Source: Nitrosomonadales bacterium
Lineage (GTDB): Bacteria > Pseudomonadota > Gammaproteobacteria > Burkholderiales > Gallionellaceae
Length of the DNA: 32,517 nucleotides
Assembly: GCA_016218445.1 (NCBI GenBank)
Contig: JACREC010000070.1
Location: forward strand, 1 to 32,517
Direction: 5' to 3'
Part shown: positions 9,305 through 32,388 of the stretch, piece by piece
Numbering within the stretch: position 1 is the stretch's first letter
Layout: the number at the start of each line of letters is the position of its first letter
Position numbers and translations under genes: made by a program
The notes under the pieces: generated by a model
Databases searched by the model: none
Seen by the model: only the letters and a program-made list of their open reading frames with translations
What the model was told of the DNA's origin: nothing

Positions 9305-9367
9305 TTTGCTTTCAACACCGTTCGCCCTTAAGTAGTAACTTAGCACGGGGTTATCGTGCTTAGCCCA

Positions 9368-9434
9368 GTAGGGTGGGCACCCTGTGCCCACGCGGCAGTT
9401 CAATGATTGATGGGCAACTTGTTGCCCACCCTAC
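9368..9434. repeat. Palindromic repeat, GTAGGGTGGGCA type
   Basis: GTAGGGTGGGCA at 9368-9379 is exactly inverted as TGCCCACCCTAC at 9423-9434, with a second inner pair (TGTGCCCACG / GATGGGCAAC, imperfect). Elements with this end sequence are widespread in proteobacterial intergenic regions. It is part of the gene-free 9305-9738 interval, together with the larger repeat at 9463-9699. Confidence 0.75.
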
Positions 9435-9462
9435 GACTTAAAGATTTTGGGCCTTCGTTTTT

Positions 9463-9699
9463 TCTTCCCCTGTGCGCCGCCTCGACCAGATGCAAGAAAG
9501 CGGAGGTTTAGGCGAGCACTGTTCGAGTTCCGCAGGGAGGCACGTTTTATGTGCCTCACTAGGGCGAGTTGCGCAGCCCCGCTTGCTTGCGGCTGATCGA
9601 GGGAACCCCGCAGGGGCGGCAAACCGGGGGGCGACTTCTTTGGGTTACTTTTCTTGGCAAGACAAGAAAGGTAACCAGCTGCCGGTCTACCACCGGCGA
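9463..9699 (+). repeat. 235-bp structured repeat, copy A
   Basis: This segment is ~85% identical by eye to the reverse complement of 32066-32300. It contains a nested inverted repeat (arms 9480-9506 and 9577-9603, decayed on the left), a central hairpin (9534-9543 with 9551-9560), a CCCCGCAGGGG hairpin near 9606-9616, and a third inverted pair around TTCTTGGCAAGACAAGAA (9651-9668). Short open frames across it differ between copies and look accidental. Copy A ends 40 bases before the TTG start of mutT-thiE, so it forms that gene's upstream region. Confidence 0.8.
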
Positions 9700-9738
9700 A
9701 GTTGCCTTTGATCTGGCTTGAAAATTTGAGAGAGTACG

Positions 9739-10722
9739 TTGAACAATTCCATAGAAAAAACCAAGCTTGTCGAAGTTGCCGCTGCGGTGCTGCAACGCCC
9801 AGACGGTTCCTTCCTGTTGGCCCAACGCCCCCCCGACAAAATCTGGGCCGGCTATTGGGAATTTCCCGGTGGCAAAATCGAACCCGGCGAAACGCCTTAC
9901 CATGCATTGGTGCGCGAGCTGCGCGAAGAACTGGGCATAGCAGTCGAAACAGCTTACCCGTGGGTAACCCGCATCTTCACTTATCCTCATGCGACAGTGC
10001 GGCTGAATTTTTTTCGCGTAACTCAATGGAGCGGTGAGTTGCATCCGCATGAGGGGCAGCAGTTTGCGTGGCAGCGCCCCCTCTCCCTAGCCCTCTCCCC
10101 CGATGGGGCGAGGGGACGGGTTTTGGTTTCTCCCATTCTCCCTGCTAACGCCCCTATCCTGCGCGCGCTGGAATTGCCGTCGCTGTATGCCATCAGCAAT
10201 GTGGCCGAACTGGGTGTGGAGGAATTCATGCGTCGGCTGGAAGGCGTATTGCACAACGGTTTGCGGCTGGTGCAGGTGCGCGAAAAACATTTGCCGCGCG
10301 CCAAGATGCGCGTATTGTCGCTGCGTGTGCTGGAGCTGGCGCATGCGCATGATGCAAAAGTTTTGATTAACAGCGATGTCGAGCTGGCCCAAGAAATCGG
10401 CGCGGACGGCGTGCATCTCACCAGCACGCAGCTCGCTGCATTGCGCAAACGCCCTGACCTTCCGTGGTGCGCGGCATCCTGCCACAACAAAGAAGAGCTG
10501 CAACGGGCCGGAGAGTTGGGTCTGGATTTCGTGGTGTTAAGCCCGGTGCTGCCGACCAAATCACATCCGGGTACGGCTCACCTCGGCTGGGAAGCATTCG
10601 GGGAAATTGCGGCCGGTTCGGCCATCCCGGTGTATGCCTTGGGTGGGCTGTGTCGCGACGATATGGAAACGGCGTGGCAGCATGGCGCGCACGGAATAGC
10701 CTTGTTGCGTCAGGCCTGGTGA
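9739..10722 (+). CDS. MutT-type Nudix hydrolase fused to a ThiE/TenI-like domain
   Basis: Residues ~10-112 form a Nudix hydrolase. The full Nudix box GX5EX7REUXEEXGU is present at residues 45-67 (G45, E51, R59, E60, E63, E64, G66), as in MutT enzymes that hydrolyse 8-oxo-dGTP. Residues ~145-327 form a TIM-barrel like thiamine phosphate synthase: [39 protein letters not shown] and a terminal YALGGL phosphate-binding loop. This fusion is known in beta- and gammaproteobacteria. The ThiE half departs from the classical INDR motif (here INSD), so its thiamine role is uncertain. The linker carries ~16 residues from a palindromic repeat. The start is TTG at 9739 with GAGAGAG upstream. No TPP riboswitch was seen. 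The 3' end overlaps converging yacG by 13 bases. Confidence 0.9.
10077..10120. repeat. CCCTCTCCC-type palindrome inside mutT-thiE, partial copy
   Basis: A CCCCCTCTCCCTAGCCCTCTC-like left arm (10077-10099) pairs with GGGGCGAGGGGACGGG on the right. This is the core of the elements at 3073-3184 and 12384-12477. Here it is in frame and encodes residues ~113-128 of the fusion protein, exactly in the linker between its two domains. Confidence 0.7.
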
Positions 10723-32016: not shown

Positions 32017-32053
32017 GTTAGGTTGGGTGGAGCGCACAGCGCGTAACCCAACA
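32017..32053. repeat. Short palindrome, GTTGGGT type
   Basis: GTTGGGT (32022-32028) and ACCCAAC (32046-32052) flank GGAGCGCACAGCGCGTA. Sequences of this type are common dispersed intergenic repeats in beta- and gammaproteobacteria. It begins right after the glycosyltransferase stop and joins the larger repeat. Confidence 0.6.
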
Positions 32054-32065
32054 TCAAAGAAAAAA

Positions 32066-32300
32066 CCGCCGGGGGTTGCCCGGCAGCAAGCTACCTTTCT
32101 TGTCTTGCCAAGAAAGGTAACCCAAAGAAGTCGCCCCCGGTTTGCCGCCCCTTCGGGGTGCCCTCGATCAGCCGCAAGCAAGCGGGGCTGCGCAACTCGC
32201 CCTAACAAGGCACACACAACGTGCCTTGTTGCGGAGCTCGAACAGTGCTCGCCTACCCCTCCGCTTCCTTGCGGCTGATCGAGGCGGCGCACAGGGGAAA
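32066..32300 (-). repeat. 235-bp structured repeat, copy B (inverted relative to copy A)
   Basis: The reverse complement aligns with 9463-9699 over its whole length. This copy has the more intact structure: arms 32162-32187 and 32258-32284 are near-perfect inverted repeats of ~26 bases, enclosing a 10-bp hairpin (32204-32213 with 32221-32230). A CCCCTTCGGGG hairpin lies near 32149-32159. No conserved frame is shared with copy A. Confidence 0.82.
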
Positions 32301-32310
32301 TGGGCACTCA

Positions 32311-32388
32311 GTAGCCTGGATGTAGCGTAGCGAAATCCGGGTTCTGGTTACAAGCACCCCCAGATTTCATTGCATCCCATCCGGGCTT
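32311..32388. repeat. Imperfect palindrome, GTAGCCTGGATG type
   Basis: GTAGCCTGGATG...GAAATCCGG (32311-32340) pairs imperfectly with CCAGATTTC...CATCCGGGCTT (32360-32388). The ends resemble well-known REP-like sequences of proteobacteria that surround ATCCGGGCTAC. No transposase is seen in the window. Confidence 0.55.

Follow-up and report, generated by a model that had tools for sequence, protein, structure and literature searches.

Copies of a folded repeat in the window

The window, by which we mean the whole 32,517-nucleotide stretch of DNA analyzed here, contains two copies of a structured repeat. Copy A lies between argJ and a mutT/thiE-like gene and matched a covariance model of the repeat at 9461..9715 on the + strand (201 bits, E 1e-55), while copy B matched at 32050..32303 on the − strand (211 bits). 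An initial annotation had placed the two copies at 9463-9699 (+) and, inverted, at 32066-32300 (−), and both repeats were found at these places. The copies are 88% identical and have a fold in common. In the central stem of copy A, AGGGAGGCAC (9534-9543) and GTGCCTCACT (9551-9560) form nine pairs and one G.A mismatch, whereas AACAAGGCAC and GTGCCTTGTT form ten pairs in copy B. Two G-C pairs of copy A are A-T in copy B, with both partners changed, and where A has its mismatch, B has a C-G pair. The annotated central stem, including these paired changes, held exactly, as did the long outer arms claimed for copy B. When folded as RNA, copy B reached −134.7 kcal/mol (z −6.8 relative to shuffles); copy A folded as DNA gave a z of −5.3 relative to shuffles. 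Neither copy had an Rfam match at gathering score, and the Rfam matches over copy A were at chance level only (E up to 5).

In other respects, the annotation required correction. The conserved unit is larger than the central hairpin alone: beyond it, that strand folds into an outer stem, a small hairpin, a hairpin of 14-15 bp, and, at the terminus, a hairpin crossed by a further helix. Nor is the repeat confined to two copies, since the genome gave 18 blastn matches, which include fragments and palindromic reverse matches. The annotation also overlooked that such repeats come in pairs that carry cargo, each repeat forming one end. We reject the view that the window holds an ordinary repeat.

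Read 5′ to 3′, a copy begins with an outer stem, P0 (CCCC..GCCGCC paired with GGCGGC..GGGG), which encloses the P1 arm (capped by P2 and an apical hairpin) and, after it, P3, which is a small hairpin. Two further hairpins lie outside P0, namely P4 (GGTTAC..GTAACC) and the terminal P5, the latter usually with a T-rich stretch on its 3′ side. In copy A (+ strand throughout), the 5′ arm of P0, CCCCTGTGCGCCGCC (9467..9482), pairs with the 3′ arm, GGCGGCAAACCGGGG (9615..9629), and this helix, the first of the covarying helices, is paired in 96% of cells. The P1 arms (9482..9497 and 9586..9601) are replaced in sequence yet complementary in other copies. The apical hairpin atop P1/P2, which is the central hairpin of the initial annotation (9534..9560), is exchangeable and is swapped for other hairpins in other copy classes; the P1 arm and the apical hairpin each exist as several sequence classes, freely combined and with complementarity retained. 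Over 150 copies, P3 (CCCCGCAGGGG, 9606..9616) and P4 (GGGTTACTTTTCTTGG..AAGAAAGGTAACC, 9642..9676) are paired in 99.7% and 99.3% of cells, respectively. P5 and the helix that crosses it (XXGC..GCYY) occupy 9676..9699. With CA and TA as its crossing dinucleotides, copy A is among the few non-complementary exceptions.

Copy A is the complete right end of a cassette element whose left copy is missing. By comparison with an element at the same site in another genome (L243), an apparent remnant of the left outer module, CCGTTCGCCC, lies at 9317..9327 (+). At 9411..9432 (+) is the inner hairpin TGGGCAACTTGTTGCCCACC, a module that sits inside elements beside the 5′ end of a copy and recurs in other elements. 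Copy B, likewise complete, is the left end of a second element, whose other copy would be expected past the contig end at 32517. An outer hairpin module, GGTTGGGTGGAGCGCACAGCGCGTAACCCAAC, adjoins copy B at 32021..32052, and similar outer modules are found in other elements.

Other short hairpin repeats are present near the copies (GGGTGGGCAACTTGTTGCCCACC, GGTTGGGTGGAGCGC..GCGTAACCCAAC, and GGATGTAGCGTAGCGAAATCCGGG, within 9355-9440, 32021-32052, and 32310-32345), and hairpin modules like those around the window copies are stacked symmetrically around other elements. Spurious open frames cross copies (e.g., 9431-9907 on the − strand, ..YLSCLAKKSNPKKSPPGLPPLRGSLDQPQASG..) and may be annotated as proteins in public genomes.

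Conservation of the fold

The initial annotation proposed that the fold, not the sequence, has been kept. Covariation analysis supported this claim, with a very strong signal beyond phylogeny. In our main alignment (57 copies, aligned on sequence alone, 65 pairs tested), 90% of cells pair. Cells in which both partners had changed numbered 343, compared to 111 in shuffles and 34-105 when partners were slid. On the copy tree, we counted 116 double changes, whereas permuting the partners gave 4.4 on average and never more than 17. For 150 model-aligned copies, double-changed cells numbered 1001 versus 239; because this alignment was fitted to the model, it leans towards structure. Since double changes far exceed the shuffled, slid, and permuted-partner nulls, the copies keep their fold and not their sequence, and phylogeny alone is not a sufficient explanation. 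Template-switch repair of palindromes can yield paired changes without selection, and a neutral origin of this kind remains possible for the paired changes.

The helix crossing P5 was also maintained. Its flanking dinucleotides are complementary in 206 of 211 copies, with five dinucleotide types represented, and on the tree, double events numbered 15 for one of its column pairs, more than for any pair of the nested fold, and 6 for the other. In distant families of the class, a crossing helix was present in 19 of 26 copies, mostly with other sequence, versus 11% of shuffles. With only 1-2 nt, the connecting loops leave little room for a simultaneous pseudoknot, and two alternative hairpins may form instead.

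An excess of G.U over A.C on the copy strand would imply folding of one single strand. In the model-fitted alignment, G.U exceeded A.C in both P0 (64:10) and P4 (82:3); with a strict filter on the main alignment, the counts were even (112 vs 115). We rejected the asymmetry as decisive for one folded strand, as it was gone under the stricter filter and came back only on the model-fitted alignment. At most, the asymmetry in P0 and P4 may be weak evidence for a single folded strand. Where the annotation suggested a structured RNA or a DNA hairpin, the fold is supported and the evidence does not choose between RNA and single-stranded DNA.

Inverted pairs, cargo, and shared sites

The repeat is present in 76 of 100 Gallionellaceae genomes. 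In a class-wide sample, 79 of 276 genomes and 66 of 216 genera had matches. Organisms named in a pattern scan were Gallionella, Sideroxydans, Ferrigenium, Sideroxyarcus, Thiobacillus, Sulfuricella, Hydrogenophilales, Methylophilaceae, Collimonas, Glaciimonas, Polaromonas, and some MAGs labelled Gammaproteobacteria. The multi-part architecture, its order, and its orientation are alike across the class. Plasmid and phage collections gave no match to the repeat. Within the family, genus g9 (e.g., G103 and G105) is nearly without the repeat, G113 being the sole carrier among its model-searched genomes, and neighboring genera have many copies, a natural contrast for spotting a required host gene.

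In the fetched loci, neighboring copies formed inverted pairs with their 3′ ends outward in 119 cases, versus 4 other arrangements. Because loci were selected by their matches, these 119 do not represent random sampling; inverted pairing was also seen in complete genomes and distant families. In 56 pairs, the copies are <300 bp apart (median ~115 bp). This empty form, with ~115 bp of short hairpins between its ends, measures ~570 bp as a whole. The copies of the other 63 pairs are further apart (median 1.1 kb) and enclose cargo. Single copies without a close partner also exist, for example five in the complete genome G063. An apparent 37-kb pair in genome G015 consisted of a partial copy and a separate close pair.

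The 63 occupied elements contain 77 reading frames of ≥100 aa, usually one gene each. Nearly all of this cargo is mutually unrelated, with two exceptions, a single homologous pair and a recurring 340-aa gene; the latter was not identified and is likely an inserted transposase. The only homologous pair (L066/L077) represents one site inherited in two relatives; as some cargo is vertically inherited, recent mobility is unproven. Mean GC content was 44.7% for cargo and 59.8% for the flanks, and cargo was lower in 62 of 62 comparisons. Most of the 64 scanned cargo proteins had no Pfam match. The matches that we obtained include Mrr_N, HEPN (RiboL-PSP, AbiU2), T5orf172, KilA-N, TIR/SEFIR, RelA_SpoT, DUF1780, DUF3800, an OLD-like AAA ATPase, and a trypsin-like peptidase, and PADLOC matches include bSEFIR, Old, AriA, BstA, HEC-01A, PDC-S33, and PDC-S59. 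Recognizable cargo is often defense-like.

Upstream of many cargo genes is a 27-bp motif (sense ATAGTCAAAACAATTCGACTCCGGTACATT) with promoter-like hexamers 17 bp apart. From its position and spacing, we infer that it is likely a promoter. We also considered whether it could be half of an attC site; the place upstream of gene starts and the −35/−10-like spacing favor a promoter. The antisense reading, GTACCGGAGTCGAATTGTTTTGACTAT, is found at L019:2624-2650, L221:721-747, L225:1856-1882, and others. The motif is not restricted to elements, being found upstream of accessory genes elsewhere as well and in one genome that lacks copies; examples outside elements are L318:1973-1999, L320:1575-1601 (in the window's own genome), and L322:1431-1457. 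It may mark one regulon of defense-like genes.

Site-specific cassette exchange should leave the same site with different cargo in relatives, and this was met, with 20 sites common to fetched loci of different genomes. At one shared site, the cargo in the loci of six genomes was 236, 174, 222, 264, 227, and 233 aa. Ends at one site often match end-for-end across species (e.g., 0.86 parallel vs 0.59 crossed), and in L211 and L217 they are apparently swapped relative to the site. The two ends of one element are up to 99% alike, and ends of unrelated copies have a mean identity of 62%. The argJ-mutT site was found in several states. In G002, there are no copies and the genes are ~90-110 bp apart; in G003, the genes are followed by a left end at the contig end; in G090, the full element L243 carries a 302-aa gene; and the window retains no more than the right copy and the remnant of the left outer module. 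We detected no consistent target-site duplication in the outer flanks compared, where boundaries were blurred by further hairpin modules. The initial annotation had suggested recognition by a mobility enzyme. The mobility part is supported by the inverted pairing, the unrelated cargo, and the presence, absence, or different cargo at one site; no enzyme was identified.

No recombinase lies within the elements, nor did we see anything else there that could mobilize them. The Y1 transposase (PF01797) was absent from the complete genomes G063 and G115, both copy-rich, and present in two complete genomes without copies, a distribution that does not support RAYT as a general mobilizer. The integron integrase model TIGR02249 scored above cut-off in 7 of 14 genomes, in none of them beside a copy by position, and found nothing above cut-off in the copy-bearing genomes G063, G115, G131, G062, and G034. 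The window's genome encodes an integron integrase at G000:C113:1465-2352 (454 bits, above the curated cut-off), and no repeat copy was reported on contig C113. Two recurrent insertion sites are just downstream of tyrosine recombinase genes (L129:1-2762; L042:625-2855, on C124 of the window's own genome; L249:240-1417) that resemble the housekeeping genes xerD and xerC, the latter with an rlmI-like gene after it. These neighbors may reflect chance or be a lead to the mobilizer, which may also have been lost or belong to another family.

Explanations and known systems

In the explanation that we favor, each repeat would be one end of a non-autonomous gene-cassette element, in which two inverted copies with their 3′ ends outward bracket either ~115 bp of hairpins or, usually, one foreign gene. 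Cargo would be swapped while the site can keep its ends, leaving different genes at the same intergenic site across species. We infer, by analogy to integron attC sites and REP hairpins, that the ends fold as single strands and would be recognized by their shape by an enzyme acting in trans. Homologous exchange within the ends may add to cargo replacement.

Parts of this explanation differ in strength. Fold conservation, pairing, cargo diversity, and shared sites with different or no cargo are shown. The anatomy of the element, paired folded ends around exchangeable cargo, is well supported and very likely correct. Shape recognition is our best guess because unrelated ends share only 62% identity while the fold holds; the structure-recognized recombination or transposition in trans that would follow is inferred, and we lean slightly against taking it as established. 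For the overall reading, a gene-cassette system without its own recombinase and with ends recognized by fold, we see as much reason for belief as for doubt. We are likewise undecided on a bolder joint claim, that one cassette system spans the Gammaproteobacteria (including the former Betaproteobacteria), with multi-helix inverted ends, a pseudoknot-like terminus, and recognition by fold, and that single exchangeable defense-type genes at recurrent sites are moved by an unidentified enzyme.

Among the rivals, the one that survives best is that the ends are RNA elements. Transcripts leaving the cassette either way, which are inferred, would end in the fold, which would terminate, stabilize, or regulate the message; the cargo gene would be costly, and cargo exchange would be ordinary homologous recombination. 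This remains possible. In its favor are a crossing helix compatible with an H-type pseudoknot, the G.U excess in P0 and P4, the T-rich stretch after the terminal hairpin, and the conserved promoter-like motif before cargo genes. However, empty elements retain their two ends although hardly any gene would fit between them, the promoter side bears a copy too, the wobble test fails on the stricter count, and the connecting loops are short for a simultaneous pseudoknot.

Less likely is that the ends are homology arms of cassettes acquired by DNA uptake and replaced via homologous recombination in the repeats, with the fold incidental. Consistent with this view, a site's ends are retained while cargo differs, the ends of one element can be nearly identical (up to 99%), and ends can look swapped relative to the site, as in L211 and L217. 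Against it, unrelated copies diverge to the 62% mean with stems still paired; such arms should preserve sequence, not fold. Finally, that the repeats are mere intergenic palindromes kept by template-switch (quasipalindrome) repair among other hairpin repeats, with fold and cargo unselected, would fit the several other hairpin modules on both sides and the ability of template switching to make paired changes, but is very unlikely given the same architecture, order, and orientation class-wide, the crossing helix maintained by covariation, and the consistent inverted pairing around foreign genes.

If our favored cassette explanation is true, bacteria have, in addition to transposons and integrons, another route by which to collect and swap single accessory genes, and the covariance model would allow such cassettes to be sought across thousands of genomes. 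Because most cargo has no Pfam family and the matched proteins are often defense-like, the cassettes may amount to a collection of defense genes yet to be tested. It also raises the question of what enzyme recognizes, at a cassette end, a 240-base fold that includes a crossing helix. The open-access literature that we searched contained no description of the element; subscription journals and preprints were outside our scope, so prior description is not excluded. The element is widespread in bacteria and apparently undescribed.

Several known systems share features with these elements. Neisserial minimal mobile elements and repeat arrays (NIMEs) are similar in having different genes at one site across strains and flanking intergenic repeats; they are not known to contain a comparable 240-nt covarying fold, and the elements described here differ in being spread class-wide. 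The ends of IS200/IS605 elements, PATEs, and omega-RNA likewise involve folded single-strand ends or a structured RNA at a transposon end, but IS200/IS605 ends are on one strand whereas these are inverted, no tnpA or tnpB was seen inside elements, and Rfam gave no match. Like MITEs, the elements are short and non-autonomous, with the inverted ends lacking a transposase that define such elements. Unlike MITEs, their ends are kept as folds rather than as sequence and roughly one pair in two has a gene inside; a parent transposon with matching ends was not found.

REP/BIME repeats, which are associated with RAYT (Y1), are also inverted intergenic hairpins, and short REP-like hairpins flank these ends on both sides. 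In contrast, the units described here are much longer and multi-helix, with a crossing helix, and membership of a REP/BIME system with RAYT was not supported, as the Y1 transposase is missing from two copy-rich complete genomes. Nor was an integron cassette array supported, since the sites are inverted (119 vs 4) rather than direct and no integrase was adjacent to a copy in the 14 genomes searched. These ends are inverted pairs of ~240 nt, whereas integrons have one direct attC per cassette, and the elements often have their own promoter-like motif, with no integrase beside copies. Nonetheless, integron cassettes are alike in what they carry and how their sites are kept: single AT-rich genes, mostly unknown or defense-like, at sites preserved by fold and not by sequence.
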